NCBI RefSeq assembly: GCF_900141985.1
Contig: NZ_FQZK01000001.1
Coordinates: 434,001 to 498,000 of the forward strand
Source of the DNA: Nocardiopsis flavescens
Lineage (GTDB): Bacteria > Actinomycetota > Actinomycetes > Streptosporangiales > Streptosporangiaceae
Direction: 5' to 3'
DNA: 64,000 nucleotides
In this document: piece by piece, positions 23,412-40,961 of the stretch
Layout: each line of letters opens with the position of its first letter
How positions within the stretch are numbered: the stretch's first letter is position 1
Program-made: the position numbers and the translations under genes
Notes under the pieces: generated by a model
The model's database searches: none
The model's input: the letters and a program-made list of their open reading frames with translations, nothing else
Told to the model about the DNA's origin: nothing

Positions 23412-24035
23412 ATGGACCACGACGCACTGGACGGGGCCGCGGAGGCCGAACTGGCGACCCGCTGGGGACCTTTCCGCCTGGTGGCCTTTCGCGACCCGGC
23501 CGACCGCACCGACCACATGGCCCTGGTGCGCGGCAGCGTCCGCGACCGCGACGAGGTCCCGGTGCGCGTGCACTCCGAATGCCTCACCGGCGACGTCTTC
23601 GGGGCCCTGCGCTGCGAGTGCGGCGACCAGCTCACCGCCGCCCTGGACACCGTCGCCGCCGCCGGCCTGGGCGTGATCGTCTACCTGCGCGGCCACGAGG
23701 GGCGCGGCATCGGCCTGCTGGACAAGGTCCGCACCCTGGCGCTCCAGGACGGGGCGGGGCTGGACACCGTCGACTCGGCCACCGCCCTGGGCCTGCCCGT
23801 GGACGTGCGCGACTACGGACCCGCCGCCCGCGTCCTGCACCACCTGGGCGTGCGCTCGGTGCGCCTGCTGTCCAACAACCCCGACAAGGTCCGCGCCCTG
23901 AAGGAGCACGGGGTACGGGTGGCCGCCCGCGAACGCCTGCTCGCCCCCGTGCGCCCCGAGAACCTGCCCTACCTCAGGGCCAAGCGCGAGCGGCTGGGCC
24001 ACGACCTGCCCGCACCGGACCTGCCCGATGCCTGA
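23412..24035 (+). CDS. ribA: GTP cyclohydrolase II paralogue with Leu in place of the key Tyr
   Basis: This 207-aa stand-alone RibA-fold protein has the zinc site Cys57, Cys68, Cys70 (HSECLTGDVFGALRCECG) and YLRGHEGRGIGL. The Tyr equivalent to E. coli RibA Tyr105 (KIRAYALQD) is Leu109 (KVRTLALQD). In S. coelicolor a paralogue lacking this Tyr was reported to stop at the formylated intermediate FAPy instead of the normal triamino product. This gene is probably the same kind and not the riboflavin enzyme. ATG at 23412 has AGGGGAA upstream. The stop overlaps the next start by 8 bp, tying it to the alcohol-phosphate transferase and not to rib genes. Confidence 0.85.
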   Translation: MDHDALDGAAEAELATRWGPFRLVAFRDPADRTDHMALVRGSVRDRDEVPVRVHSECLTGDVFGALRCECGDQLTAALDTVAAAGLGVIVYLRGHEGRGIGLLDKVRTLALQDGAGLDTVDSATALGLPVDVRDYGPAARVLHHLGVRSVRLLSNNPDKVRALKEHGVRVAARERLLAPVRPENLPYLRAKRERLGHDLPAPDLPDA

Positions 24036-24765
24036 CCTCGCCGCCGCGGCGGACGCCCGGCGCTCCCCGCACCGCGCGCTCGCCGGCGCGGCAGCCGCCC
24101 AGATCGCCGTGCTCGCGGCCCTGGCCGCCACCGTCGGCCTGGGCCCGGCCGGGGCGGCGGTGGCCGCGGCCACCGCCGCCGCGGGCGCCCTGCTCACCGC
24201 CCGCGCCGCCCTCCGCGCCCGCCACCGGTTCGGCCCCGCCGACGCCGTCACCCTGGCCCGGTGCACCCTCATCGCCGCCACCGCGGGGCTGGTCGCCGAC
24301 GGCGCCCACCCCTGGGCGGTGCTGGGCACCGCCGCCCCGGCCCTGGCCCTGGACCTGGTCGACGGGCCGGTGGCCCGCCGCACCCGCACCGCCACCGACT
24401 TCGGGGCGCGTTTCGACATGGAGGCGGACGCGTTCCTGCTGCTGGTCCTGAGCGTGGCCGCCGCGCCCCTGCTCGGCCCGTGGACGCTCGCGGTCGGCGG
24501 GATGCGGTACGCGTTCGCCGCCGCCGCGTGGTGGGCCCCCTGGCTGTCGGCGCCGCTGCCGCCCGGCCGGGCCCGCAAGGTTGTGGCCGCCCTACAGGGG
24601 GTCGCGCTCCTGGCGGCCCTGGCCCCGCTCACCCCCGTGCCGGTCGCCGCCGCCGCGGTCGCGGTCGCCCTGGCGCTGCTCACCTGGTCCTTCGGCCGCG
24701 ACGTCCGGTGGCTCCACCGCACCCGGAACCCGGCCGGCACCGCCCCCGAACGCGTCCGGACCTGA
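24028..24765 (+). CDS. CDP-alcohol phosphatidyltransferase family protein
   Basis: A 245-aa, Ala/Leu-rich polytopic protein. It has the full family signature D-G-x2-A-R-x8-G-x3-D-x3-D, starting at DGPVAR near residue 111; the Asp residues bind the metal and CDP. These membrane enzymes transfer a phosphoalcohol or phosphatidyl group from a CDP-activated donor to a hydroxyl acceptor. Neither donor nor acceptor can be deduced. The ATG overlaps the RibA stop by 8 bases, so a product of the RibA branch may be joined to a phospho-alcohol or lipid; that is an inference. Confidence 0.88.
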   Translation: MPDLAAAADARRSPHRALAGAAAAQIAVLAALAATVGLGPAGAAVAAATAAAGALLTARAALRARHRFGPADAVTLARCTLIAATAGLVADGAHPWAVLGTAAPALALDLVDGPVARRTRTATDFGARFDMEADAFLLLVLSVAAAPLLGPWTLAVGGMRYAFAAAAWWAPWLSAPLPPGRARKVVAALQGVALLAALAPLTPVPVAAAAVAVALALLTWSFGRDVRWLHRTRNPAGTAPERVRT

Positions 24766-24799
24766 AAGGGTGGCGGGGACATCCACCAGGAGGAGGACC

Positions 24800-25774
24800 A
24801 TGGCACGGACCGCGCGGGCGTTCTGGACCCTCTCGCCCGGCAGGGGCGAGATCCGCGAGGAGGCACTGGCCGACCCCGGACCCGGCCGGGTCCTGGTGCG
24901 CACCCTGTACTCCGGCATCAGCCGCGGCACCGAGACCCTGGTGTTCGGCGGCGGCGTCCCGCCCGGCCAGTACCGGGTCATGCGCGCCCCCTTCCAGGAG
25001 GGCGACTTCCCCGGCCCGCTCAAGTACGGGTACCTCAACGTGGGCGTCGTCGAGGAGGGCCCCGACCGGCTGGCCGGGCGCACGGTGTTCACCCTCCACC
25101 CGCACCAGGACCTGTTCACCGTCCCGGTGGACGCCGTCTGCCCCGTGCCCGAAGGGGTGCCCGCCGAGCGGGCGGTGCTGGCCGGGACGGTCGAGACCGC
25201 CGTCAACGCCCTGTGGGACGCCTCGCCCCTGATCGGGGACCGCATCGCCGTGGTGGGCGCCGGGATGGTGGGCTGCTGCGTGGCCCGCCTGGCGGCGGGC
25301 ATCCCGGGGGCGCGCGTCCAACTGGTAGACGTGGACCCCGCCCGCGCGGACACCGCCGCCGCGCTGGGGGTGGGGTTCGCCGCGCCGGAGGACGCCGGCG
25401 CCGACTGCGACCTGGTCTTCCACACCAGCGCCACCGAGGCCGGGCTCACCCGCTCCCTGGAGCTGCTCGCGCCCGAGGGCGAGGTGGTCGAGCTGAGCTG
25501 GTACGGCGACCGGCGGGTGATCCTGCCGCTGGGCGGGGAGTTCCACTCCCAGCGGCTGGCCGTGCGCGCCAGCCAGGTGGGGATGATCTCCCCCGCCCGC
25601 CGGTCCCGCTACGAGCACGCCGAACGCCTCCAGCTGGCCCTGCGCCTGCTCGCCGACCCGGCCTTCGACGCCCTGCTGACCGGCGAGAGCGCCTTCGGGG
25701 ACCTGCCCTCGGTGCTGCCGCGGCTGGCCGACGGCTCCCTGCCCGCCCTGTGCCACCGCATCGCCTACCCCTGA
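24800..25774 (+). CDS. MDR-superfamily (zinc-type) dehydrogenase
   Basis: A 324-aa medium-chain dehydrogenase/reductase. It has the GroES-like N-terminal domain with LYSGISRGTE where zinc alcohol dehydrogenases have the Cys ligand region, so the catalytic-zinc Cys is absent. The Rossmann motif is VGAGMVGCCVARLA (about residues 151-164). The substrate is unknown. ATG at 24800 follows AGGAGGAGG, a very strong ribosome site, 34 bp after the CDP-alcohol transferase gene. It belongs to the same operon as the RibA paralogue. Confidence 0.86.
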   Translation: MARTARAFWTLSPGRGEIREEALADPGPGRVLVRTLYSGISRGTETLVFGGGVPPGQYRVMRAPFQEGDFPGPLKYGYLNVGVVEEGPDRLAGRTVFTLHPHQDLFTVPVDAVCPVPEGVPAERAVLAGTVETAVNALWDASPLIGDRIAVVGAGMVGCCVARLAAGIPGARVQLVDVDPARADTAAALGVGFAAPEDAGADCDLVFHTSATEAGLTRSLELLAPEGEVVELSWYGDRRVILPLGGEFHSQRLAVRASQVGMISPARRSRYEHAERLQLALRLLADPAFDALLTGESAFGDLPSVLPRLADGSLPALCHRIAYP

Positions 25775-26080
25775 CCGGGGAGCGGGGCGCCGCCCCGGCC
25801 GTGCCCGCAAACGGGGGCCGGGGTCCCCGGGCCCGGCACGAGCCATCCGAGCCGAGGGCCGGGTCCCGGCACGAAAGACCGCACCCGCGGCCGACGCCGA
25901 GGGCGCGGGCATGGACCGAAAAGCGGCACCCGCGGCCCGGAACCCGGAGACGGCGGGACCGGCCGTGCGACCCTGCCCGCGGCCGAGCACCGAAGGCCGC
26001 GCCGGGGACCGGACGGCCGGGCCCGGGAGCGCGATCCGCCTCCCGGGGCCCCGACGCACCGGGGCCGCCCGGCCCGGCCC
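25775..26080. other. Intergenic region without a recognisable gene
   Basis: These 306 bp separate two convergent genes, the MDR dehydrogenase and the metallo-beta-lactamase-fold protein. The stretch is GC-rich, with the short direct repeat GCACCCGCGGCC occurring twice (25875-25945). I see no credible coding frame with a ribosome site, and no clear terminator. Confidence 0.5.
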
Positions 26081-26863
26081 TCAGGGCGTGAAGACCGTGC
26101 CCGGGACGGCGACGGCGACCGGGCCGCCGAAGGACTCCCCGGCGTGCTCGCGGCCCCGGTCCCGGTCGGCCGGGTCGGCGAAGTGGGTCAGGACCAGGCG
26201 CCGGGCCCGCGCCCGGGCCGCGAGGGCCCCGGCCATGCGCGCGGTCAGGTGGCCGTGCCCGTGCAGGGCCTGCTCGTCGGCCTCCAGGTAGGTGGCCTCG
26301 CACACGAACAGGTCCGCCTCGCGGGCCGCCTCCGCCACCGGTTCGCAGTCGCCGGTGTCGGAGGAGAACGCCACCGTCCGGCCGTCCGGGCCCTCGAACC
26401 GCAGCGCCGCCGAGGGCACGCTGTGGTGGGCCGCGAAGGACCGGAACGCCGCACCGTCCACCTCGTGGACGGTCCACCCGTCCCTGGGCATCTCCACCAC
26501 CTCGAACGACTGGGCGATGGGCCGGTTCATGGCGGCCAGGGTGGGGATGCCGAAGACCGCGTCAAAGGCGGCCAGCCGGTCGGTCTCGCCCGCGGGCACG
26601 AAGAGCGGGACGCGCGGCAGCACCTCGGGGAAGGTCCACCGGTACGCCCACGCCATCAGGTCCAGGCTGTGGTCGGCGTGCAGGTGGGTCACCACGATCC
26701 CGCGCAGCCGGTCCAGCCCGTACCGGGAGCAGTAGGCCAGCAGCGACCCGGGGCCGGCGTCGACCAGGACCACCCCCGTCCGGGTGTGCAGGAGGTAGCA
26801 CGAGGCGGGCCCCTCCCGGGTGGGCGCGGTCGCGTTGGATCCGAGGATCTCCAGTTCCAGCAT
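26081..26863 (-). CDS. Metallo-beta-lactamase-fold hydrolase (RNase Z / PhnP-like branch)
   Basis: This 260-aa protein has the metal motif THLHADHSLD (His60, His62, Asp64, His65), then HHS, SSDTGD and LTHFAD, giving a two-metal phosphodiesterase-type site. Its N-terminus (LELEILGSNATAPT) resembles RNase Z/PhnP-like cyclic phosphodiesterases more than beta-lactamases. Natural substrate unknown; a small phosphodiester is plausible. ATG at 26863. It lies 136 bp downstream of, and in the same direction as, an importer operon, so it may act on the imported compound. Confidence 0.82.
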   Translation of the reverse strand: MLELEILGSNATAPTREGPASCYLLHTRTGVVLVDAGPGSLLAYCSRYGLDRLRGIVVTHLHADHSLDLMAWAYRWTFPEVLPRVPLFVPAGETDRLAAFDAVFGIPTLAAMNRPIAQSFEVVEMPRDGWTVHEVDGAAFRSFAAHHSVPSAALRFEGPDGRTVAFSSDTGDCEPVAEAAREADLFVCEATYLEADEQALHGHGHLTARMAGALAARARARRLVLTHFADPADRDRGREHAGESFGGPVAVAVPGTVFTP

Positions 26864-26999
26864 GTGTGCTCCTGACTCGTTCGCACGTGGTGGCGACCGG
26901 CCGTGTCGGACGGCCGGCGCGGGGGTGGAAGGGGTTCGGCGGGGGCCGCTCCCCCGCCGGAGGGCGGCGGCGCCCGCCCCGGGGCGCGGCCCGGTCCGT

Positions 27000-28091
27000 T
27001 CAGGCCCCCGGGGTGAGCAGCACGGCCCGGCCCGGGGCCACCGCCAGGGACACCGACCCGCCCACGCGCGCGTCCGGGGGCACCCGCACCCCCAGGACCT
27101 GCTCCCCCGCCCGGACGGTCAGCCGGACCCCGTCCCCGGTGAACTCCGAGTGGGTCACCCGCGCCTCCAGCACCGCCCGCGCGGGATCGTCGGTGACGGT
27201 GAGGCTGTCGTGGCGCAGCAGCAGGCGGGTGCTCCCGTGCGCGGTGGGGCGCACGGCCAGGTCCCGGACCGGGACCCGCCAGCGCCCGTCCAGGGCCAGC
27301 GCGTGCCCGTCGTCGACGACGGCGTCCAGCAGCACCGCACCGGCCAGGAAGTCCGCGACGAAGGCGTCGGCCGGGTCGTCCCACAGCCTGCGGGGCGTGT
27401 CGAACTGGACCAGGCGGCCCTCGCGCAGCAGCGCGATCCGCGACCCCAGGGACAGCGCCTCCTGCTGGTCGTGGGTGACGATGAGGGTGGCGCAGTCGGT
27501 CTCGGCGAGCATGGCGGCCAGCTCCCGGCGCAGCCCGCCGCGCAGCTGGGGGTCCAGCGCGGCCAGCGGCTCGTCCAGCAGCAGGGCGTCGGGCCGGATC
27601 GCCAGCGCGCGGGCCAGGGCCACCCGCTGGCGCTGGCCGCCGGAGAGCTGGTCGGGCCGGCGCTGGGCCAGGTCGGTGAGCCGGGTGACCTCCAGCATCT
27701 CCCGGACCCGCTCCCGGCGCCGGGCCGCCGCCGTGCCCCGGGCGCGCAGCCCGTAGGCGATGTTGGCGGCCACGCTCATGTGCGGGAACACCGCGTAGTT
27801 CTGCGGGACCAGCCCGATGTTGCGCCGGGACGGGTTCCACCCGGTGACGTCGCGCCCGGCCAGGGACACCGCTCCCCCGCTGACCGGGACCAGCCCGGCG
27901 ACGGCGCGCAGCGTGGTGCTCTTGCCGCAGCCCGAGGGCCCGATCACGGCGACGGTTTCGGCGGGGGCCACGTCCAGGGACACCCCCCGCACGGCGGCGG
28001 TGGAGCCGTAGTGGACGGTCAGGCCGTCCACGGCCAGCCCCTCCGCTCGTGCGGGGGCGGACCGCCGGTCGGCGGCGGCGCGGATGCTCAC
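27000..28091 (-). CDS. ABC transporter ATP-binding protein (Fe3+/AEP/putrescine type)
   Basis: A 363-aa ATPase with Walker A GPSGCGKST, Q-loop VPQNYAVFP, signature LSGGQRQRV, Walker B ALLLDEP and a C-terminal TOBE-like domain (about 280-363). This belongs to the importer ATPases of the iron/2-aminoethylphosphonate/polyamine class. GTG at 28091 overlaps the stop of the upstream permease gene. It is the last gene of a four-gene import operon on the minus strand (binding protein, permease, permease, ATPase). Confidence 0.93.
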   Translation of the reverse strand: MSIRAAADRRSAPARAEGLAVDGLTVHYGSTAAVRGVSLDVAPAETVAVIGPSGCGKSTTLRAVAGLVPVSGGAVSLAGRDVTGWNPSRRNIGLVPQNYAVFPHMSVAANIAYGLRARGTAAARRRERVREMLEVTRLTDLAQRRPDQLSGGQRQRVALARALAIRPDALLLDEPLAALDPQLRGGLRRELAAMLAETDCATLIVTHDQQEALSLGSRIALLREGRLVQFDTPRRLWDDPADAFVADFLAGAVLLDAVVDDGHALALDGRWRVPVRDLAVRPTAHGSTRLLLRHDSLTVTDDPARAVLEARVTHSEFTGDGVRLTVRAGEQVLGVRVPPDARVGGSVSLAVAPGRAVLLTPGA

Positions 28092-28849
28092 GGGTTCCTC
28101 CTCGGGGCCCGGCGCCGGGCCCAGGCGATGGCGGTCAGCACCGGCGCGACGAAGGCGATGAAGATCGCCGACTGCGCCGAGGCGAGTTCGAGGCGCTGGG
28201 TGGAGTAGGAGTCGAACAGCGCGAACGGTGCGGTGGGGGTGGCGGGCGGGTTGATGAAGAAGCTGATGTTGAACTCGCCGAAGGAGAGGGCGAAGACCAT
28301 GGTGACCGCCTGGGCGAGGGCGACCGCGCAGGACGGGACCGTGAGGGTGCCCAGCACCCGGGCGGGGCCCGCGCCGAGGCTGCGCGCGACGCTCTCGTTG
28401 GTGCGCAGCTCGTCGTCGGCCAGGGCCGGGACCAGGGCCGCCAGGGTGAACGGCAGGGTGAACACGAGGTGGCCCAGGACCAGCAGCAGGCCGCTGGGGC
28501 GCAGCATCGGGTAGGCGCCCACCAGCGCCACGCTCAGCGCGATGCCGGGCACGGCCAGGGGCACGTTCACCAGGTGGCCGGTCAGGCGGGTCAGCGGCGA
28601 GGGGTGGCGGGCCACCCACCAGGCCAGCGGGCCGCCCACCAGGAGGTTGAGCACGACCACCAGCACGGCCACGGCCAGGCTGCGGCCGATCACCGGGGCC
28701 AGCGGCGGCCAGGCGTAGGCGAACCAGTCCAGGGTCGGCCCGCCGCCCCAGGGGCCCTGCGAGAAGTCGGCGCTGGTGGCGGCCACCAGGGTCGCCAGGA
28801 TCGGGACGGCCACGAAAACGCAGGTCAGATAGGTGACGACGCGGGTCAT
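28088..28849 (-). CDS. ABC transporter permease, second subunit
   Basis: This 253-aa integral membrane protein has about six hydrophobic helices. A degenerate EAA-type loop is present (SVARSLGAGPARVLGTLTVP, near residues 155-175), followed by FGEFNISFFI, typical of COG1177/COG1178-type permeases. ATG at 28849 overlaps the upstream permease stop; its stop overlaps the ATPase GTG. Confidence 0.92.
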   Translation of the reverse strand: MTRVVTYLTCVFVAVPILATLVAATSADFSQGPWGGGPTLDWFAYAWPPLAPVIGRSLAVAVLVVVLNLLVGGPLAWWVARHPSPLTRLTGHLVNVPLAVPGIALSVALVGAYPMLRPSGLLLVLGHLVFTLPFTLAALVPALADDELRTNESVARSLGAGPARVLGTLTVPSCAVALAQAVTMVFALSFGEFNISFFINPPATPTAPFALFDSYSTQRLELASAQSAIFIAFVAPVLTAIAWARRRAPRRNP

Positions 28850-29706
28850 GCGGCCACCGCCCGTCGGACGAGGCGGGCCAGGGCCCGGCCCAGGACCAGC
28901 GCCAGCACCGCCATCGCCGCCAGGACCACGGCGAGGGTGGAGGAGGCGGCCACCCGGTAGCCGGTGGTCAGCTCGTTGGCGACGTTGAGCGGCAGCAGCC
29001 GCACCCCCTCGGACAGGGTCGCCACCGTGCCGTACCCGCCCAGGGCGACCGCCAGCGCGGTCCCGCCGGTCTCGATGGCGGCGGGCAGCAGCAGGGGCAG
29101 GGTGACGGTGCGGAACACGCGCGCCCGGGAGGCGCCCAGGGTGCGGGCGCTCTCGGCCAGGGCGGGGTCCAGGGTCGCGGCGGCGCCGCGCAGCGGGCCG
29201 AGCACGCGGGGCAGGCAGAAGTAGACGTAGGCGACGAGCAGTCCGGTGAAGGTGTAGGCCAGCCCCGAGAAGCCGTCCCAGGCCAGGCCCAGCAGCCCGG
29301 TGCGGCCGGTCAGGATGATCGCGAAGAAGCCGATGATGATGCCGGGCAGCGCGATGGGCAGGGTGAGCAGGGCGTCGGCGGCGGCTCCGCCCCGGCCGGC
29401 GCGGTCGTCCCGGGCCTGGCGCAGCACCACGGGCACGGCGACCAGGAGCGTGAACAGGACCGCTCCCCCGGCGATGAGCACGGAGTTGAGCAGCGCGTCG
29501 CGGACGGCCGCCGAGCCCAGGGCCCGGGAGTAGTGCTCCAGGGTGGGGCCGCCGTCGGCCGGGGGCCGGCCCAGGCCCAGGGAGTTGGCGGCCATCACCG
29601 CGACGGGGTAGGCGCTGAACAGGCCGACGACGGCCAGGGCCGGGAGCGCGGCGAGCCAGGCCGGCGGTGCCGCGGCGCGCCCCCGGGCGGGTGCGCGGAG
29701 GGACAC
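28846..29706 (-). CDS. ABC transporter permease, first subunit
   Basis: This 286-aa permease has six or more membrane helices and the EAA-like loop [20 protein letters not shown] (about 190-210). I chose GTG at 29706, where the frame leaves the binding-protein gene: the upstream TAG shares its last base with this GTG. Longer versions of the frame would overlap the binding-protein gene in the wrong frame. It pairs with the downstream permease. Confidence 0.9.
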
Positions 29707-30749
29707 TAGAATCCGACCTCGTCCTGGTAGAGCCCGATGAACTCCTGCTGGCGCTGCCCCTGCTCGGCGTAGTCGACGGTGCGGGCGCGCTCGTAGTCCT
29801 GGGGCGGCAGCACCTTGTCGGCGACCTCGTCGGGCATCTCCCCCACGACCGGGCGCATGTACCCGGCGGCGAACAGGCCCTGGCCCTCCTCGGAGAAGTA
29901 GAAGTCGAGGAGCCTCCTGCCGTTGTCCGCGTTGGGCGCGCCCTCGACCAGGCCGACGATGTACGGGATCTGGAGGGAGCCCTCCCGGGGGATGACCACG
30001 GAGACGTCGGCGCCCTCGTCGCGGAGCCTGTAGCCGTTGAAGTCGGTGTCGATGAGGATGGGGATCTCGCCCTGGGCGACCTTGGCGGTCGCGGTCTGGG
30101 CGGCGGTGGAGGCGCCGTTGTCCTTGAGGTCGCCCAGGTAGTCCAGGCCCGGGCCCCAGTCGTCGAGGTCGCCGCCCAGGGCGAGGTTGACGGCGGTGGC
30201 GGCGGAGTAGCCCACCGCGGCCTGGGTGGGGTCGAGGTAGCCGACCTTGCCCTCGTAGGCGGGGTCGAGCAGGTCCGCCCAGCCCTGGGGCACGGGGGCG
30301 CCGTCGAGGTGGTCCTCGTTGACGATGAAGGCGATGGTGCCGGTGTGCACGGCGGTCCAGGCGCCGTCGGGGTCGCGCAGGTCGTCGGGGACCTGCTCGG
30401 CGCCCTCGGGCACGTAGTCCTGGAGGACGCCGGCGTCCGTCAGCTGCCCGGCGAAGGCGATGCCGGTGTAGGCGACGTCGGCGACGGGTGCGCCCTTCTC
30501 GGCCTGGAGGGCGGCCAGGGCCTGGCCGGAGTTCTTGGGGTCGTTGGGGGCCTCGATACCGGTCCGCTCGGTGAAGGCGTCCAGCACCGCGCCGTAGTTG
30601 CCCCACTCGGTGGGCGAGTTGTAGGTGATGACGATGCCGTTCTCGCCCGCGGCCGCTCCCGCCGGGGGCTCCACGTTGCCGCAGGCGGCCAGGGTCAGGG
30701 CGGCGAGGGCGGCGGCGGTGCCGGCGGTCGCCGCGCGTCGGTGGGACAT
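29706..30749 (-). CDS. ABC transporter substrate-binding lipoprotein (AfuA/PhnS-like)
   Basis: A 347-aa binding protein with a lipoprotein signal ending LTLAAC (lipid Cys23). The mature part resembles the COG1840 group that binds Fe3+, 2-aminoethylphosphonate or other phosphorylated compounds ([10 protein letters not shown], then [12 protein letters not shown]). The ligand cannot be fixed. ATG at 30749 has GGAG at good distance. It heads the importer operon and is divergent from a LacI regulator, with an operator-like palindrome between them. Confidence 0.88.
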
Positions 30750-30810
30750 GGGGGCTCCGATGCTGGTGGGGCGGCCCGCGCGGGGCCGGGGAAGGAACGG
30801 GAGGACGTTG

Positions 30811-30828
30811 TGATTAAACGATTTATCA
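30811..30828. promoter_or_regulatory. LacI-type operator between importer and regulator
   Basis: TGATTAAACGATTTATCA is an AT-rich imperfect palindrome centred on CG (7 of 9 base pairs match), the usual design of LacI-family operators. It stands out from the very GC-rich surroundings. It lies 61 bp upstream of the binding-protein start and 144 bp upstream of the LacI gene, so it could control both. Confidence 0.65.
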
Positions 30829-30972
30829 TGGGGGTGACCTGCACTGTCTCCATGTGTGTCCAACGGGCCAACTCCGCTGGAACCCTCGAAGAATCCGCCC
30901 CCGCGGACCCCCGCGGCCCCCGGACGGTGCCACTCTCGGTGCCAGGCACCGACGACGCGAAGGACAGAGACC

Positions 30973-32010
30973 ATGCCCCCACCCCCCAGACGCGCCACCC
31001 TGCGCGACGTCGCGGCCCGGGCCGGGGTCTCGGCCGCCCAGGCCAGCCTGGCCCTGAACGGCCGCGGCCGGGTCGCCCCGGCCACGGCCGAGCGCATCCG
31101 CCGGGCGGCGGCCGAGCTGGACTACCAGGCCGACAGCCGCGCCCGGCAGCTGCGCACCGGCCAGCGGTCCGCCTACGGGGTGGTCATCCGCAACATGCGC
31201 AACCCGTTCTTCCTGGACGTGCTGAGCGGCATGGAGGTGCGGGCCCACCGCGAGGGCGCCCTGCTGCTCATCCTCAGCTCGGACTACGACGCCGACCGCG
31301 AGGCCGCGGCCCTGCGCCGCTTGGGCGCCGAGGGGGTCGGCGGCGTCGCCATCGCCCCCATCGGACGGGCCGGACGGCTCACCGAGTGGATACCGCGCCA
31401 CCCCGGCATCCCCGTGGTGGCGTTCAACTGCACCCCGGACCCCGCCCTGACCGGCGCCGGGGGGACCGTGACCACCGTGGGCCCCGACGACGGGGCCGCC
31501 GTCTCCCTGGCGCTGGGACACCTGCGCGAGCGCGGGCACCGGGCGGCGACCCTGGTCACCGCGCCGCTGGAGCTGGCCGCGGACTGGGGCCGGGAGGAGG
31601 AGTTCCACCGCCGCTGCGCCGAGTGGGGCCTGCGGGGCACCGTCGTGCGCTGCCCGCTGGACCACGCGAGCGTGGCGCGGATGGCGGCGGAGCGGATCGG
31701 CCGCGCGCGCGGGGGCGGCGGGCACGAGGCGCTGGTGGTCAACTCCGACCACCTGGGCACCGCGGTCTACGACGCGGCCCGCTCCCTGGGCCTGCGGGTG
31801 GGGCGCGACGCCAGCGTCGTGGGCCACGACGACCTGCCCACCTCCGCGCTGCTGGACCCGGGCCTGACCACCGTCGCGCTGGACCGCGCGCTGCTGGGCG
31901 ACCACGTGATGCGGCTGCTGCTGAGCCCCGGGGAGGGCACCGGGGCGGACGGCGTCCGGCTCCCGGTCCACCTGGTGGAACGGGACTCGGTCGCCGTCCT
32001 GGACACCTGA
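30973..32010 (+). CDS. LacI-family transcription regulator
   Basis: This 345-aa regulator has an N-terminal HTH ([20 protein letters not shown], about residues 7-26), the hinge, and a ligand-binding domain ending in [21 protein letters not shown]. It is divergent from the import operon and probably senses the imported solute. ATG at 30973 is preceded by AGGACAGAGA. It is less like the sugar-type BxlR regulator at 18980 than a typical paralogue would be. Confidence 0.9.
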
Positions 32011-32441
32011 CCGGACCCGGGGCCCGCACGCCGCGGGGCGGGGGTCGCACGCCACGGACCGGACGGACCGGGTCCCGGGAAGCGAAGGGCGGGGCGAGCG
32101 GGACTCTGCGGGGCCGGGGCGGTCGGGTACCCGACCGGGCCCGGGGCCCGCGCACCGAGGGGCGGGGGCGGGGACGGGTCACGCGGACCGTCGCCGGCGG
32201 GCACCGCCCGGACGGCCGCACCGGGGCGCGGTCCCGTCCGCCACCCGGCGGGAACCGCCCGCCGTCCCCGCGTCCCCCGGCGCGGGGCCCGGTCGGCATG
32301 AGAACATCCACCGGACACGCCCCGGCGCGGGGCCCGGCGGTCCGGCACGGCCGCGGGGCGGCCGTTGCGGCGCCCGGTCCGGCACGCCGGACCCCGGCGT
32401 CCCGCCTCCCGGGGCGAGCCGCCGACGATGGAGGAGCACCG
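32011..32441. other. Intergenic region with an 18-bp perfect palindrome
   Basis: These 431 bp lie between the LacI gene and the second half of the RibA-type gene set. They hold CGGTCGGGTACCCGACCG (32120-32137), a perfect palindrome that could be an operator or hairpin, followed by GC-rich repeats (GGGCCCGGGGCCCG). No ORF with a ribosome site is convincing. A promoter for the PTPS-GT-MT operon should be here, but I cannot point to it. Confidence 0.5.
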
Positions 32442-32825
32442 GTGTTCAGTGTGACGGTCCGCGACCACATGATGGTCGCCCACAGCTTCCGCGGCGAGGT
32501 CTTCGGCCCGGCCCGGGCCCTGCACGGCGCGACGTTCGTCGTCGACGCCACCGTGCACCGCCGGGACCTGGACCCCGACGGCGTCGTGGTGGACATCGGC
32601 GAGTTCTCCCGGGTGCTGGCCCAGATCGTGGGCGAGCTGAACCACCGCAACCTGGACGAGGTGCCCGAGTTCGCCGGGGTCAACACCACCACCGAGTTCC
32701 TGGCCCGGACGGTGGCCGACCGGTTGGCGGAGCGGCTGGACGCGGCGGCCCGCGGGCTGTGCCGCATCGCCGTGACCCTGCACGAGTCGCACGTGGCCCG
32801 GGCCTCCTACGAGAGGGAGCCGTGA
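32442..32825 (+). CDS. 6-Pyruvoyl-tetrahydropterin synthase / QueD-fold protein, non-canonical
   Basis: A 127-aa T-fold protein. MVAHSF supplies the first zinc His (His14), and LHGATF stands where PTPS/QueD have HGH, so only His28 of that pair remains. The catalytic Cys normally about six residues before it is Gly. TTTEFLA replaces PTxENLA, the substrate-anchoring Glu motif. The fold assignment is good, but a normal dihydroneopterin-triphosphate reaction is unlikely. GTG at 32442 has GGAGGAG upstream and the stop overlaps the glycosyltransferase start. It may bind a pterin or pyrimidine made by the RibA paralogue. Confidence 0.82.
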
Positions 32826-33853
32826 CGGTCTTCGCGGTGCCCGAGCCCGCCGCGCCCAGCGGCGGCCACACCTACGGCCGGCGCCTGGCCCGCGCGCTGG
32901 GCCTGGACCGGGTCGAGATGCCCGGGACCTGGCCGCGCCCCGCCGTCCGCGACCTGGCCGGCCTGGACCTGCTGCTGACCGCCCTGCCCGACGGGTCGGC
33001 CGTCCTGCTGGACGGGCTGGTGGCCTGCTCCGCCCCGGAGGTGGTCGTGCCCCACTCCGCCCGGCTGCGCGTCGTGGTGCTGGTCCACCTGCCCCTGGCG
33101 GACGAGACCGGCCCGGGCCCCGCCGAGGCGGCCGACCTGGAGGCGCGGGAGCGGGCGGTGCTGCGCGCCGCCGCGGCCGTGGTGGCCACCGGCGGGGCCG
33201 CCGCCCGCGACCTGGAGTCCCGCCACGGCCTGCCCCGCGTGGACACCGCCCCGCCCGGGGTGGACCCCGCGCCCGAGACCGTTCCCGGGGACGGGACCCG
33301 GCTGCTGTGCGCGGCCTCCCCCACCCCCCGCAAGGGCCACGACGTGCTGTTCGACGCCCTGGACCGGGTCCGCGACCTGCCCTGGACCTGCGCCTGCCCC
33401 GGGCTGGCCGACGACGGCGGCGACCCGTGGCAGGCCCGCGTCCGGGAGGCGGCCCGCGCCTTGGACGGCCGGGTGGCCCTGCCGGGCCCGCTCACGGGCG
33501 CCGACCTGGACGCCGCCTACGCCGCGGCCGACCTGCTGGTGCTGCCCACCCGCGCCGAGACCTACGGCATGGTCGTCACCGAGGCGCTGGCCCGCGCGGT
33601 CCCCGTGCTGGCCAGCGGGGTGGGCGGCGTACCCGAGGCGCTGGGCCGCGACCCCGGAGGGGACCGGCCGGGCCTGCTCGTCCCGCCCGACGATCCGGGC
33701 GCCCTGGCCGACGCGCTGCGCCGATGGCTCACCGACCCGCCCCTGCGGGAAGCGCTTCGGCGTTCGGCCCGCCGGCGCCGGCCGGCCTTGGCAGGATGGG
33801 AGGAGACGGCCCGTTCGGTGGGCGCCGTCCTCGACCGGGAGGAAACCCCGTGA
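32822..33853 (+). CDS. Glycosyltransferase family 4 protein
   Basis: This 343-aa GT-B enzyme has the C-terminal donor-binding region with a TPRKGHD motif (about 171-177) and the E-x7-E pair in [11 protein letters not shown], typical of GT4 retaining transferases using a nucleotide sugar. It lacks membrane segments. GTG at 32822 overlaps the PTPS-like stop, and its own stop overlaps the methyltransferase start, so the three products probably act in sequence. Acceptor and sugar are unknown. Confidence 0.88.
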
Positions 33854-34635
33854 GCACCGACCACGCCCAGGAGTTCGCCCCGCGCTGGCTGGACGCCCGC
33901 GAGGGCGCCGACGCCGACGCCCGCTCGCGCGGACCGCTGGCGGCCCTGGCCCCGCACGGCTCCGTGGTCGCCGACCTGGGCTGCGGCACCGGCTCCCTGG
34001 GCCGCTGGGCCGTCCCCCGCCTGCCGGGGGTGCGCCGCTGGACGCTGTTCGACCGCGACCCGGAACTGCTGGCCCTGGCGGGCGCCCGGGTCCCGGCACC
34101 GACCGTGGAGACCCGCCTGCTGGACCTGGCCCGGCTGGGCCCCGCCGACCTGGCGGGGGCCACCCTGGTCGCGGGCTCGGCCCTGCTGGACGTCCTCACA
34201 CCGCGGGAGGTCCTGCCCGTGGCCGACGCGGTCGCGGCCGTGGGCTGCCCCGCCTGGTTCACGCTGTCGGTGGCCGGGCGGGTCGTCCTGACCCCGGAGG
34301 AGCCGCTGGACGCGGCGGTGGCCGCCGCGTTCAACGCCCACCAGCGGCGCGGGGAGCGGCTGGGCCCGGACGCGGTGGAGGCCGCGATCGACGCGTTCGC
34401 CCGCCGCGGCTACCGGGCCACGACCTTTCCCAGCCCGTGGCGGCTGGGGCCGGACCCGGCCGAGGTCACCCGGCTGTGGCTGCACGGCTGGGTGGGCGCG
34501 GCGGCCGAGCAGGACCCGGACCTGCCGCTGGAGGGCTACCTCGCCCGGCGCCTGGAGCAGTGGGGGGCGGGCCGCCTCACCGCCGTCGTCCACCACGACG
34601 ACCTGCTGCTCATGCCGCCCGGGAAGCGCCCGTGA
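33850..34635 (+). CDS. SAM-dependent class I methyltransferase
   Basis: A 261-aa methyltransferase with motif I VVADLGCGTGSLGR (about residues 40-53) and an acidic residue at the end of strand 2 (LFDRDPE) for SAM binding. The C-terminal half (about 150-261) is a cap that I do not assign. It is translationally coupled on both sides (GTG/TGA overlaps). It likely methylates the product of the preceding glycosyltransferase or its precursor. Confidence 0.87.
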   Translation: MSTDHAQEFAPRWLDAREGADADARSRGPLAALAPHGSVVADLGCGTGSLGRWAVPRLPGVRRWTLFDRDPELLALAGARVPAPTVETRLLDLARLGPADLAGATLVAGSALLDVLTPREVLPVADAVAAVGCPAWFTLSVAGRVVLTPEEPLDAAVAAAFNAHQRRGERLGPDAVEAAIDAFARRGYRATTFPSPWRLGPDPAEVTRLWLHGWVGAAAEQDPDLPLEGYLARRLEQWGAGRLTAVVHHDDLLLMPPGKRP

Positions 34636-36245
34636 CCCCGCGCCCGCCGACGCCCCGCCCCGGCCGGGAGCCGCCCTTGGGCCCCGCCCGGGCCGCCGAC
34701 GGCGGCGGCACGCGGCGGTGGTGGCGCAGGGCCGCCTCCACCGGGCCGCCCGCCCCCGACCACCCCGGCGCCCACGACGGCCCCGACACCACCGGCCCGG
34801 CCCAGGCCCACGACCCGGGAGGGCCCGCCCGGCCCGACCACCGTCCCGGGCACGAGGGGCCTTCCCGGCCCCCGAACACCCGTGGCACCCCGGACGGCCC
34901 CCGCGCCGGCCGCGCACGCGGGTGGTGGCGCAGGACCACCCCTTCCGTGCCACCCGCCCCCGCACAAACCCCCGACCGCCCCCGCGCCCACGGCAGCGGC
35001 CCCGACACCGCCGGCCGCACCGGCCCGGCCGAGGGCTCCGACGGTCCGGCCCCCGGCGCACGGGAGCCGTGGCGACCCGCCGACGGGCCCGGCACGCCCC
35101 GGCCGCCGGCACCCGCCACGGGCCCCGGCCACCCCTGCGACCGCGCCGGGGAACGGCCCTCGTCCGGCCTCGGACCCGGACACCACACGTCCCCCCGGCC
35201 CCCGGACGCCCCGGGCGCCCCGCACACCCCGGACGGTCCCCGCGCCGGCCGCGCCCACGGGTGGTGGCGCCGCCGCCGCGGGGCGCTGCTGCGGGCGGGC
35301 GCGGGCGCCCTCATCCTGGGCTGGGTGCTGTGGCACCACCCCCTGGAGGCCTTCACCGCGGCCCTGGCCTCGGTCGACGCGGGCGCCGTCGCCGCGGCCC
35401 TGGCCCTGGGCGCGGTGACCACCGTGCTGAGCGCCGCCCGCTGGCTGGTGGTGGCGCGGGCGGTGGGCCTGCGCCTGTCCCCGCTTCGGGCGGTCGCCGA
35501 CTACTACCTGGCCCAGCTGCTCAACGCCGTGCTGCCCGCCGGGATCCTGGGCGACGCGCACCGGGCGGTGCGCCACGGGCGGGCCAACGGCGACCTGGGC
35601 CGCGGGGTGCGCGCCGTGGTCCTGGAGCGGCTGGCCGGACAGGCGGTGCTGGCCCTGGCCGTGGCGGCGCTGGTCCTCACCCTGCCCTCGGCCCTGTGGG
35701 GCCCGGGGTGGGCGGCGGCACTGTCCTCCCTGGGCCTGGTCGCGGCCCTGGCGGTGCCGGCCGCCGCCGCGCTGCGCGTCCCCCGCCTGCGCGCCTCCCG
35801 CGCGGGCCGGTTCCTGGCGGCGTCCGTCCGCGACGCGCGCACCGCGCTGGTGGGCCGGGCCCCCGCCGTGCTGGCGCTGTCGGCGGCGGCGCTGGCCGGC
35901 CACGTCGCCCTGTTCCTGGTGGCCGCCCACGCGGCCGGGGCCCAGGTCCCGCCGCCGCGCCTGGTGCCGCTGGCGCTGCTGGCCCTGGCGGCGATGAGCC
36001 TGCCGGTGAACGTGGGCGGGTGGGGCCCGCGCGAGGCGGCGGCCGGCGCGGCGTTCGGCGCGGCCGGGCTCGGCTCCGGCCTGGGGGTGACGGTGTCGGT
36101 GGTGTACGGGCTGCTGGCGCTGGTGGCGGCGCTACCGGGCCTGGCCGTCGCGGCCGCGCGCCTGTTCCAGCGCCGCCAGGTGCCCGGCGGCCCGGCCGGT
36201 GAGGAACTCCAGCACGGCGCGCCCCTTGGCGGCGCTCGCCCGTGA
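34632..36245 (+). CDS. Flippase-like membrane protein (UPF0104) with repetitive disordered N-terminus
   Basis: A 537-aa protein. Residues 1-215 are low-complexity Pro/Gly/Arg with three RRWWRR/GWWRR-type motifs. From about residue 218 it is an integral membrane domain of about eight helices, like the lysylphosphatidylglycerol synthase TM region/UPF0104, with NVGGWGPREAA near residue 458. Such domains flip or present lipid-linked substrates. The N-terminus arose partly by internal duplication: 34887-34931 and 35226-35270 are nearly identical. GTG at 34632 overlaps the methyltransferase stop. The last 114 bases overlap the creatininase gene on the other strand. Confidence 0.85.
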   Translation: MTPRPPTPRPGREPPLGPARAADGGGTRRWWRRAASTGPPAPDHPGAHDGPDTTGPAQAHDPGGPARPDHRPGHEGPSRPPNTRGTPDGPRAGRARGWWRRTTPSVPPAPAQTPDRPRAHGSGPDTAGRTGPAEGSDGPAPGAREPWRPADGPGTPRPPAPATGPGHPCDRAGERPSSGLGPGHHTSPRPPDAPGAPHTPDGPRAGRAHGWWRRRRGALLRAGAGALILGWVLWHHPLEAFTAALASVDAGAVAAALALGAVTTVLSAARWLVVARAVGLRLSPLRAVADYYLAQLLNAVLPAGILGDAHRAVRHGRANGDLGRGVRAVVLERLAGQAVLALAVAALVLTLPSALWGPGWAAALSSLGLVAALAVPAAAALRVPRLRASRAGRFLAASVRDARTALVGRAPAVLALSAAALAGHVALFLVAAHAAGAQVPPPRLVPLALLALAAMSLPVNVGGWGPREAAAGAAFGAAGLGSGLGVTVSVVYGLLALVAALPGLAVAAARLFQRRQVPGGPAGEELQHGAPLGGARP

Positions 36246-36857
36246 GGGCAGGCCCACCACGCCGCTGTCCGTGTACGCGGACAGTCCCAGGGTGCCCATG
36301 TGGTCGCGCTCGTCGGCGCGGTGGTCGGCCCGCGCGTGGTCGGGGCCGACCAGGTCCGGGCGGGCGTGCAGCAGCACGGAGGTCTCCAGCTCCCCGGCGT
36401 GCATGTCCTGGTCGTTGGTGGTGGTCAGGCCCGCCGCCGCGCGGGCGGCCTCCCACTCGCCGGGGCCGGGGAACAGGGCCATGCGCCCGCGCGACTGCTG
36501 GACGGTGTTGGCGAGCACGTGGTTGCCGCCGTGCCCGTTGACCAGCAGCAGCGGGAGCCCGGCCAGGGAGTCGGCGATGTCGGTGACCAGGGCGTGCAGG
36601 GTGGTCGCCGAGATGCTCACGGTGCCGGGCCAGGCGGCGTGCTCGTGCGAGCAGCCGAACGCCAGCGGGGGCAGCGCGCGCAGGCCGTGGGCGTCGGCCA
36701 CCTCCCGGGCCAGGGCGCAGGCGATGAGGGTGTCGGTGGTGAGCGGCAGGTGGGGCCCGTGCTGCTCCAGGCTGCCCACGGGCAGGACGGCGGCGGCCGG
36801 GGTGCGCGCGCCCTCCTGCGGTGCGGTGGTCTCGGGCAGGATCGCGCGTTGGTCCAT
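36132..36857 (-). CDS. Creatininase-family amidohydrolase (ArfB/MftE-like)
   Basis: This 241-aa protein has all creatininase-fold metal motifs: PVGSLEQHGPHLPLTTDT (Glu31, His33, Asp42), LLVNGHGGNH (residues 104-113) and DMHAGELETS (His153, Glu156). The family includes creatininase, the mycofactocin peptidase MftE and the archaeal FAPy deformylase ArfB. Next to a RibA paralogue expected to make FAPy, deformylase is the best guess. I use ATG at 36857; ATG at 36881 is possible. Its 3' end overlaps the flippase-like gene by 114 bp, tail to tail. Confidence 0.86.
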   Translation of the reverse strand: MDQRAILPETTAPQEGARTPAAAVLPVGSLEQHGPHLPLTTDTLIACALAREVADAHGLRALPPLAFGCSHEHAAWPGTVSISATTLHALVTDIADSLAGLPLLLVNGHGGNHVLANTVQQSRGRMALFPGPGEWEAARAAAGLTTTNDQDMHAGELETSVLLHARPDLVGPDHARADHRADERDHMGTLGLSAYTDSGVVGLPSRASAAKGRAVLEFLTGRAAGHLAALEQARGRDGQAR

Positions 36858-39395: not shown

Positions 39396-40199
39396 ATGAC
39401 CGACACCCCCATCGACACGACCGTCGCCCACACCGCCCGCGTCTGGAACTACTGGCTGGGCGGCAAGGACAACTACCCGGTCGACCGGGAGGTGGGCGAC
39501 CGCATCCGGAAACTCTTCCCCCAGGTCGCCGAGGCCGCCCGCGGCGACCGGCTCTTCCTGCGCAGGTCCGTCACCCACCTCGTGCGCGACGAGGGGGTCC
39601 GCCAGTTCCTCGACATCGGCACCGGCCTGCCCACCGCCGACAACACCCACGAGGTCGCCCAGCGCATCGCCCCCGAGTCCCGGGTGGTCTACGTCGACAA
39701 CGACCCGCTCGTCCTCACCCACGCGCGCGCCCTGCTGCGCGGCACCGACGAGGGCGGCACCCGGTTCATCGGCTCGGACCTGCGCGACACCGCCGCCGTC
39801 CTGGCCGCCGCCCGCGAGACCCTGGACTTCGGGCAGCCCATCGGCCTGACCCTCATGGGCACCATGGGCCACTTCGGCGACGTCGAGGAGGCCCTGGACA
39901 TCGTGCGGACCTACGTGGACGCGCTCCCCTCCGGCAGCTACCTGGCCGTGTGCGACGGCGTCGACGCACACGTCGAGCCCGTCCAGGAGGAGAACCTGGC
40001 CGAGGCCCTCGAACTGTGGCAGGAGGGTGTCGCGCAGGAGTACCACATGCGGTCCGTCGAGGACTTCACCCGCTACTTCGACGGACTCCACCTGGTCGAC
40101 CCCGGCGTGGTGTCGGTCTACCGCTGGCGCCCGGAGCCCGCCGAGATCGGCAAGGTCACCGATCTGCCGCAGTACTGCGGCCTGGCCCGCAAGCCCTGA
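39396..40199 (+). CDS. DUF574-family SAM-dependent methyltransferase
   Basis: This 267-aa protein belongs to the actinobacterial DUF574 (Methyltransf_19) family: TARVWNYWLGGKDNYPVDRE at the N-terminus is its hallmark, followed by motif I QFLDIGTGLPT and VDNDPLV. Family members are numerous in actinomycetes; the substrate is generally unknown. The ATG at 39396 has AAAAGG upstream. It is a single-gene unit with its own terminator. Confidence 0.93.
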   Translation: MTDTPIDTTVAHTARVWNYWLGGKDNYPVDREVGDRIRKLFPQVAEAARGDRLFLRRSVTHLVRDEGVRQFLDIGTGLPTADNTHEVAQRIAPESRVVYVDNDPLVLTHARALLRGTDEGGTRFIGSDLRDTAAVLAAARETLDFGQPIGLTLMGTMGHFGDVEEALDIVRTYVDALPSGSYLAVCDGVDAHVEPVQEENLAEALELWQEGVAQEYHMRSVEDFTRYFDGLHLVDPGVVSVYRWRPEPAEIGKVTDLPQYCGLARKP

Positions 40200-40409: not shown

Positions 40410-40961
40410 ATGGCCGAACTCGTCCACTTCGTGCACCAGTCCCTCGACGGCTTCATCGAGGGCCCGAACGGCGAGTTCGACTGGCCCGTCATGGGACCCG
40501 AGATGTCCGAGGACGCCCGGGCCCTGAGCGAGCGCGCCGACGCCTTCCTCTACGGCCGCGCGGTGTGGGACATGATGTCGGGCTTCTGGCCGCGCGCCGA
40601 GGAGCACTCCCAGGACCCCCACGACCTCGCCTTCGCCCCCCTGTGGCGGGCCAAGCCCAAGGTCGTGGTGTCGCGCACCCTGGAGCGCGCCGACTGGAAC
40701 ACCACCGTCGTCCGCGGCGTCGAGGGGGTCGCCGAGCTCAAGGCCGCCGGGCGGGAGCTGGTCCTGTTCGGCGGCTCCGCCCTGGCCGCCGACCTCACCC
40801 GCCACGGCCTCGTCGACGAGTACCGCGTGTTCGTGCACCCCGTCGTCCTGGGCGGCGGAAAGCCCGCCTTCCCCGCCTCCGTCGGACGCCTGGGGCTGAC
40901 ACTGGCCGAGTCCCGCGTGCTCGACTCCCAGGCCGTCCTGCTGCGCTACCGCCGCGCCTGA
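40410..40961 (+). CDS. Dihydrofolate-reductase-like / RibD C-terminal domain protein
   Basis: A 183-aa protein of the RibD_C/DHFR-fold family: VHFVHQSLDGFIEGPNGEFDW at the start, YGRAVWDMM, then LFGGSALAADLTRHGLVDEY typical of NADPH binding. Stand-alone members are abundant in actinobacteria and their substrates are mostly unknown, so a role in folate or riboflavin should not be assumed. ATG at 40410, about 20 bp after a weak GGGAG. Confidence 0.88.
   Translation: MAELVHFVHQSLDGFIEGPNGEFDWPVMGPEMSEDARALSERADAFLYGRAVWDMMSGFWPRAEEHSQDPHDLAFAPLWRAKPKVVVSRTLERADWNTTVVRGVEGVAELKAAGRELVLFGGSALAADLTRHGLVDEYRVFVHPVVLGGGKPAFPASVGRLGLTLAESRVLDSQAVLLRYRRA

Follow-up and report, generated by a model that had tools for sequence, protein, structure and literature searches.

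What would a bacterium make from GTP with an atypical GTP cyclohydrolase II (GCH II), a creatininase-family hydrolase, a PTPS-like protein and genes for a CDP-alcohol phosphotransferase, a dehydrogenase, a glycosyltransferase, a methyltransferase and a flippase? This question is raised by a locus in a 64,000-nucleotide stretch of the Nocardiopsis flavescens genome (contig NZ_FQZK01000001.1, positions 434,001 to 498,000; referred to below as the window, in whose numbering all positions are given). A first-pass annotation of the window had listed these eight genes and proposed that they encode an undescribed GTP-derived pathway. Scans with Pfam and NCBIfam profiles recovered all eight families in the window (source genome size, 7.17 Mb), each as first named. 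We showed that the eight genes constitute one real, conserved locus, in which a GCH II paralogue (RibA) without the tyrosine of canonical enzymes occurs together with the creatininase-family gene. We think it probable, with some reserve, that the locus diverts GTP, apparently away from riboflavin, via a split GCH II reaction to a decorated compound, which is probably exported or bound to the membrane. The first two steps of this route are well supported by comparison of sequences, and the later ones are read from family names. The genes of the locus are as follows.

23412..24035, plus strand: Tyr-less GTP cyclohydrolase II paralogue (RibA); GTP_cyclohydro2 (PF00925), 207.4 bits; Leu109
24028..24765, plus strand: CDP-alcohol phosphotransferase; CDP-OH_P_transf, 47.5 bits; catalytic motif intact
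24800..25774, plus strand: medium-chain dehydrogenase/reductase (MDR), BchC-like; ADH_zinc_N, 27.7 bits (below the cut-off of 31.8); NCBIfam BchC, 52.7 bits (cut-off 291)
32442..32825, plus strand: PTPS-like T-fold protein, SCO6650-like; PTPS (PF01242), 92.5 bits
32822..33853, plus strand: GT4 glycosyltransferase; 86.8 bits
33850..34635, plus strand: S-adenosylmethionine (SAM) methyltransferase; 26.6 bits, slightly below the cut-off of 27, with clear matches in relatives
34632..36245, plus strand: flippase-like membrane protein, LPG_synthase_TM (UPF0104); 102 bits
36132..36881, minus strand: creatininase-fold hydrolase, the proposed FAPy deformylase; PF02633, 197.8 bits

The coordinates bear out the short overlaps that had been noticed between the PTPS-like, glycosyltransferase, methyltransferase and flippase genes (4, 4 and 4 bases) as well as the convergent orientation of the creatininase gene, which overlaps the flippase gene by 114 bases. 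The genes of RibA and the CDP-alcohol transferase overlap by 8 bases.

Pairing of a Tyr-less RibA with a creatininase-family gene

Leu109 of the window's RibA stands opposite Tyr105 of the E. coli GCH II (PDB 2bz0), a placement made in the first-pass annotation and upheld by alignment and by a check of the residue itself. Tyr105 of the E. coli enzyme is presumably tied to its deformylated product. The window's protein is a GCH II domain that retains its Cys residues (the translation contains HSECLTGDVFGALRCECG), which we take to be zinc ligands. It lacks the Tyr of canonical RibA and has the features of the SCO6655 type, i.e. a non-Tyr residue at this switch position and a SCO6650-like neighbour. 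The Streptomyces coelicolor protein SCO6655 reportedly makes the formylated nucleotide FAPy (formamidopyrimidine) because of its Met120 (a study of 2006), and we know of no use for the FAPy made by this RibA relative. The source genome contains one other GCH II, a 455-codon open frame on a different contig, with Tyr at the switch.

The switch residue was examined in two samples of loci. In the first (76 loci with a PTPS match), 33 loci have a RibA with Leu, Met, His or Gln at the switch, and all 33 have a creatininase gene, 32 of them inside the fetched stretch; in the 33rd (L091) the creatininase, 68% identical, lies about 13 kb from the PTPS-like gene, outside that stretch. No creatininase accompanies the 16 Tyr loci (0/16; two of them, L111 and L119, are unrelated loci) or the 27 loci without a visible RibA (0/27). 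The second sample consists of named loci, the best 80 of 588 confirmed stretches in a genome collection. Here the non-Tyr RibAs (40 with Met, as in the Streptomyces clusters, and 7 with His) are accompanied by a creatininase in 47 of 47 cases, and the 22 Tyr loci, scored within the locus stretch, in none. Taking both samples, the cluster RibAs with Tyr are without creatininase in 36 of 36 cases. Two of the 11 named loci without a visible RibA do have the gene, namely L237, whose contig begins at the CDP-alcohol transferase, and L183.

A search of 33 whole genomes gave a consistent picture. Thirteen of them carry a Tyr-type cluster; eight of these have no match to the window's creatininase, and the remaining five have matches of 37-45% only, on other contigs or more than 100 kb away. 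Three genomes of the window's own family (G189, G250 and G354) keep the CDP-alcohol transferase, MDR, PTPS-like, glycosyltransferase, methyltransferase and flippase genes, each with a single GCH II, of the Tyr type, and without a close creatininase (36%, 43% and none, respectively).

Two trees were used to see how the pairing is distributed. In a quick GCH II tree of 88 domains (near-copies and duplicates dropped by hand), the non-Tyr branch adjoins canonical domains, a clade of its own (support 100) holds 24 Tyr-type rows, and a Pseudonocardia pair, L073 and L074 are placed elsewhere on long branches. This clade and the scattered rows indicate that GCH II proteins of at least two separate origins, and probably of more, feed one and the same set of downstream genes. 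A quick core-gene tree was built from 129 loci thinned to 83 rows by dropping near-copies; ten short or cut loci were left out (L055, L061, L075, L104, L193, L199, L213, L218, L219 and L237) and L091 was scored as creatininase-positive by hand. It shows 5 changes in the Tyr-less trait and 4 in the presence of creatininase, and in Pseudonocardia both RibA types fall within one supported clade (99). The switch of L192, missed by the pattern used for scoring in both trees, is Tyr.

The pairing is thus perfect in count except for Sciscionella (L183, see below), and the events are few. The simplest reading is that a Tyr-less RibA plus a creatininase would do what a Tyr-type RibA does alone. The pairing therefore backs the earlier proposal that the creatininase-family protein deformylates FAPy; it probably acts as a FAPy deformylase, so that the GCH II reaction is divided between two proteins. 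If so, this suggests that in one and the same cluster a reaction may be run either by one enzyme or, in split form, by two.

Identity of the creatininase-family protein

The residues E39, H41, D50, H117 and E166, presumably the metal ligands, are invariant in 19 aligned rows, and a structure model (predicted local distance difference test, pLDDT, 86) has creatininase-family proteins as its best matches in the PDB. Grouping with the mycofactocin protein MftE, an outcome named beforehand as one that would speak against a deformylase, was not seen, either by score or by phylogeny. On the MftE model TIGR03964 (cut-off 172 bits) five of five cluster proteins fall below the cut-off, with 145.6 bits for the window and 136.4, 142.7, 137.1 and 131.7 bits for the others; all three of the other creatininases scanned lie above it (185, 285 and 322 bits). 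In a small quick tree (near-copies dropped by hand) 46 cluster creatininases are split from 5 others (support 97). An ordinary MftE was rejected as the cluster's creatininase on both grounds.

Conservation of the locus

A search of 296 genomes of the class with the PTPS-like protein gave matches in 52 at E 1e-3; below 1e-22 there were 44 rows of matches, from 43 genomes including the window's own. A search with a 22-row alignment matched 57 of 394 class genomes at 1e-12, in a sample that overlaps the former. Stretches of at most 20 kb were fetched around 43 PTPS-like matches, around 14 more, and around 20 matches outside the class (48 out-of-class genomes had a PTPS match). The 139 loci compared comprise 59 (the window, 57 of the class, and L104) and the 80 named loci; contig ends cut some of the stretches, and the two locus samples may share species.

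The co-occurrence of these families across actinobacterial genomes, which the first-pass annotation had predicted, was found around the PTPS-like gene in almost every one of the 139 loci: MDR in 137, GT4 in 138, methyltransferase in 123, flippase in 127 and CDP-alcohol transferase in 121. In the set of 59 the counts are MDR 57, glycosyltransferase 59, methyltransferase 48, flippase 52, CDP-alcohol transferase 50 and RibA 47; among the 80 named loci they are 80, 79, 75, 75, 71 and 69, respectively. Neither the order nor the orientation of the families around the PTPS-like gene is fixed, several arrangements being seen. Among the named genera are Streptomyces, Actinacidiphila, Micromonospora, Actinoplanes, Phytohabitans, Amycolatopsis, Pseudonocardia, Sciscionella, Actinomadura, Marmoricola and Smaragdicoccus, and the locus also occurs in metagenome-assembled genomes of Thermoleophilia. 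In the 22-row alignment search the PTPS-like marker was found in 67 of 150 species of genus g32, taken to be Streptomyces from the position of its loci among named Streptomyces in the core-gene tree.

The usual order in Streptomyces is CDP-alcohol transferase (minus strand), MDR, PTPS-like, glycosyltransferase, methyltransferase, flippase, creatininase (minus strand) and RibA. SCO6650 is a PTPS-family protein (PDB 3d7j), which the window's PTPS-like protein matches at 1e-50, and SCO6655 is listed as a GCH II (PMC2853524); the Streptomyces order therefore corresponds to SCO6648-6655, within which the numbers of the remaining cluster genes would follow from gene order.

Among the 20 out-of-class loci, L104 is of the full type, ten contain a reduced core and nine are without cluster genes except GCH II in two. 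The last nine, PTPS-family loci of other classes, served as a limited control: we found no MDR, glycosyltransferase, methyltransferase, flippase, CDP-alcohol transferase or creatininase in any of them, GCH II in 2/9, and the Cys and HGH motifs of PTPS kept in at least five. The reduced core, RibD_C-MDR-PTPS-glycosyltransferase, occurs in ten loci from one family of another class; a methyltransferase is also present in two scanned loci of this family. This version may resemble an ancestral core. In these ten loci (L105-L110, L112 and L116-L118) the PTPS-like protein still has HGH.

A block inserted in the window

The halves of the window's locus are separated by the following block, which is not a member of the cluster.

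26081..32010: inserted block with a metallo-beta-lactamase (MBL) protein, an ATP-binding cassette (ABC) ATPase (about 27000-28091), two permeases, a PhnS-like binding protein and a LacI regulator

The MDR-PTPS gap of the window (6671 bp) is the largest of 137; the next are 2452 and 1367 bp in the two sets, and the medians are 54 bp (57 loci) and 97 bp (80 loci). No match above 80 bits to the block's binding protein, permeases or MBL protein was found in other cluster loci, and its ATPase and LacI protein gave generic matches only. The block, which the first-pass annotation had already described as interposed, can on these grounds be ruled out as part of the pathway: it is an insertion seen in the window alone. 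Its genes amount to an importer of the ABC type, whose binding protein resembles PhnS (139 bits, cut-off 310), together with a LacI regulator and an MBL protein that resembles phosphodiesterases.

The PTPS-like protein

In all 22 aligned PTPS-like members H14, H28 and E120 are kept, and E120 aligns with the Glu of QueD-like proteins, which in T-fold enzymes presumably holds the 2-amino-4-oxopyrimidine. The QueD-like proteins fetched have the Cys, the HGH, the Asp-His and the WES motifs. The class members, the window's included, have lost the catalytic Cys, the third zinc-ligand His and the Asp-His dyad; the PTPS-like cluster members of the other class have lost the Cys and the Asp-His and kept HGH. 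The motif reads HGA in 136 of 154 matches (some of them overlapping), HGV in 1 and HGH in 6, with 11 unread. The protein therefore has the fold of PTPS and QueD and not their catalytic residues. It looks like PTPS catalysis was lost stepwise, with the pyrimidine-binding Glu kept. SCO6650 is said to have neither zinc nor PTPS activity (a study of 2008). The suggestion that the PTPS-like protein reworks the deformylated FAPy gains no support from its residues, those for PTPS catalysis having been lost.

A reductase in related clusters

A component that had not been foreseen is a RibD_C-family reductase. Eleven open reading frames from the first 43 loci form one family; both of its members that were scanned are RibD_C. 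Assigned by best match to two types, RedA accompanies 12/16 and 20/22 Tyr loci of the first and the named sample, respectively, and RedB 2 and 2 Tyr loci and 4/33 and 8/47 non-Tyr loci. The RibD_C gene adjoins RibA in two unlike types; in L073 the two form a single protein, beside a haloacid dehalogenase-type hydrolase. One RedA member (L060) has as its best matches 5xv5 ("Conserved protein", 1e-25), the reductase 6p8c (7.5e-25), acting on DARoPP (2,5-diamino-6-ribosylamino-4(3H)-pyrimidinone 5'-phosphate), and 2azn (7.4e-17); entries named RibD follow at 1.1e-12 (Rv2671), 2.3e-8 and weaker. The best NCBIfam model for RedA is the archaeal DARoPP reductase (117 bits, under the cut-off of 186). 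No deaminase, RibB, riboflavin synthase or lumazine synthase domain was found among the cluster proteins given to Pfam, and the 2-amino group should therefore stay.

A RibD_C-family (dihydrofolate reductase-like) gene at 40410-40961 of the window, near a major facilitator superfamily (MFS) gene, was considered as the absent reductase and rejected, its only close matches among the loci being two of the same genus (70% and 67%).

The membrane end of the locus

The motif D..DG..AR(x8)G...D...D, which we take to be that of CDP-alcohol phosphotransferases, is intact in 120 of 121 matches above 100 bits. In ten loci (L057, L060, L061 and L064-L070) the CDP-alcohol transferase is fused to a membrane protein, giving products of 755-844 aa, and in four it lies near one. 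The fusion partner had no Pfam match in the two proteins scanned. Its modest model (pLDDT 65) gave LtaP/LtaS as best match (E 6.5e-5, TM-score about 0.3), followed by sulfatases; the predicted fold is LtaS-like, of the sulfatase superfamily. A second SAM methyltransferase stands beside the fused transferase in eight loci (L057, L061 and L064-L069), and glycosyltransferase and methyltransferase are one protein in L074 and L105.

Where the window's flippase gene starts is uncertain, since the first 200 residues or so (34632-35250) are rich in Pro and Arg; the Pfam match begins at residue 220. Two weak short tandem repeats occur in this gene close to position 35200.

Proposed pathway and its alternatives

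In the route that we favour, the Tyr-less GCH II would open GTP with the formyl group kept, to give FAPy-ribose 5'-phosphate, as judged from its sequence and from the reported biochemistry of SCO6655. The creatininase-fold hydrolase would then take off the formyl group to give DARoPP, as the pairing suggests. A Tyr-containing GCH II makes DARoPP alone, and Tyr-type lineages therefore need no creatininase. Only where a RibD_C reductase is present, and so not in the window's cluster, a third step would convert the ribosyl to a ribityl group, probably before deamination, as in archaea. Going by family names, the MDR and PTPS-like proteins may subsequently convert or bind a 2-amino-4-oxopyrimidine or pterin-like compound, GT4 and the methyltransferase may decorate it, the CDP-alcohol transferase and flippase may join it to a lipid and carry it across the membrane, and in some lineages an LtaS-like enzyme may transfer it outside.

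Several observations weigh against this route. On the RibA tree the loss of Tyr is a single event, the non-Tyr proteins being one side of one branch (support 70), and no more than three independent pairs with support can be drawn from the core-gene tree; these all point the expected way (3/3, p 0.25). Sciscionella marina (L183) has a creatininase, and the GCH II matches in its genome are Tyr-type or partial; this creatininase, of 200 residues, lacks a conserved stretch. The cluster creatininases score low on the ArfB model NF033501 (25.6 bits for the window, and 38.9, 38.9, 32.8 and 32.4 bits; cut-off 180). There is no RibD_C reductase near the window's cluster or near 29/33 and 39/47 non-Tyr clusters of the two samples, and in a RedB search of 20 genomes those without a cluster copy gave distant matches only (best E 6e-14); the reduction step is therefore not general. 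Of 20 genomes tested for the LtaS-like protein, 11 (among them the window's) are without it, and the structure model of this protein is poor. The steps after DARoPP are drawn from family names. The interpretation first put forward for the window stands in part: its co-occurrence and its non-MftE creatininase hold, whereas the block does not belong, and the reductase and LtaS-like partners of related clusters were not anticipated.

A variant of the favoured route, which we regard as possible, though on balance not likely, is that a pterin arises from the locus with no need of GTP cyclohydrolase I. Either the MDR would oxidise C2' of the ribityl group or the PTPS-like protein would bring about an Amadori rearrangement of DARoPP; ring closure by the 5-amino group would follow, and the dihydroneopterin-like product would then be glycosylated and methylated. 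The pyrimidine-binding Glu kept by the T-fold protein, the lack of a deaminase among the scanned proteins and the dehydrogenase beside PTPS in 137/139 loci are in keeping with it, but its chemistry is conjectural, reduction followed by re-oxidation is roundabout, and the reported inactivity of SCO6650 as a PTPS speaks against it. As to the final product, we would suggest, tentatively and with more doubt, an envelope glycolipid of a new class. Its head group would be a 2-amino-4-oxopyrimidine or pterin from the split, archaeal-like route, which the CDP-alcohol transferase would link through a phosphodiester to a membrane lipid. The compound would receive its sugar and methyl groups and be flipped, and where an LtaS-like protein is present it would be passed onto an envelope polymer, perhaps of the sporulating mycelium.

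It is unlikely that the formyl group is kept, FAPy itself being the building block and the creatininase hydrolysing some other amide or peptide late in the pathway. SCO6655 reportedly releases FAPy as its product, and the best NCBIfam model of the creatininase is that of a peptidase, MftE (145.6 bits), but its cut-off is missed in all five proteins, and the Tyr-type clusters, with the same downstream genes and an expected deformylated compound, lack the creatininase in 36/36 cases. The locus probably does not serve riboflavin synthesis, and a further module for making riboflavin or secreting flavins, on the pattern of the Sinorhizobium BrbF branch, is very improbable, given the absence of deaminase, lumazine synthase, riboflavin synthase and RibB from the scanned cluster proteins, the separate Tyr-type GCH II of the source genome (455-codon frame) and the presence of GT4, CDP-alcohol transferase and flippase genes, which are not known to have a role in flavin synthesis, even though creatininase-family FAPy deformylation does serve riboflavin synthesis in S. 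meliloti (PMC9478397).

Relation to known systems

The split route favoured here has a counterpart in archaea, where ArfA, ArfB and ArfC convert GTP to FAPy, DARoPP and the ribityl compound as separate proteins, for riboflavin and F420; ArfB is a creatininase-family deformylase. The cluster likewise has separate proteins and a creatininase-family candidate deformylase, and the reductase of the Tyr-type clusters is closest to DARoPP reductases. It differs in that its first enzyme is a GCH II paralogue and not a GCH III, that the cut-offs of the ArfB and archaeal reductase models are not reached, that the window's cluster has no RibD_C reductase, and that its product is probably not a flavin. 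The resemblance to MftE is one of family and best NCBIfam model, whereas the cluster members stay under the cut-off and in a clade apart from MftE-scoring proteins. With QueD and PTPS the cluster protein shares the T-fold and pyrimidine-binding Glu, but not the catalytic Cys, third zinc-ligand His and Asp-His dyad. The nearest relatives are the SCO6655/SCO6650 clusters, from which the window differs in having Leu in place of Met at the switch, a different gene order and the inserted block. To our knowledge, earlier work on S. coelicolor did not work out the pathway, the role of the creatininase or the reductase and LtaS-like partners.

The creatininase-family enzyme BrbF deformylates FAPy in S. 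meliloti and B. abortus, and its FAPy-forming (GTP-opening) partner is reported there as undiscovered (PMC9478397). Compared by published description, BrbF and the cluster protein are of the same family and would deformylate the same compound, but BrbF serves riboflavin; the text of that paper mentions neither "Streptomyces" nor "actinobacter". The description of the locus as undescribed is accurate insofar as we found no account of the whole pathway in an open-licence library; parts of it had precedents, as SCO6655 and SCO6650 have been studied and a creatininase-family FAPy formamidase has been published (PMC9478397). Of the papers found, only PMC3610822 and PMC2853524 name cluster genes, in one table row each.

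The pairing names the likely next enzyme after a FAPy-forming GCH II. It also suggests a Tyr-less GCH II as a candidate for the lacking partner of BrbF in Rhizobiales. Considering the occurrence of the PTPS-like marker in 67/150 presumed Streptomyces species, the product is probably a metabolite common to many species, and may belong to the envelope or spore.

Published expression data concern two of the genes. SCO6652, which by gene order would be the cluster methyltransferase, belongs to the 53 conserved S. coelicolor genes of unknown function whose expression differs most, with log2 values of 0.8, 4.3 and 4.1 at 24, 48 and 72 h for second versus first mycelium (Table 3 of PMC3610822). SCO6655 is listed among genes mostly up in stationary phase (PMC2853524). 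Outside the locus, the window also carries a PF04672 S-adenosyl methyltransferase gene (39396-40199), close to the MFS gene.

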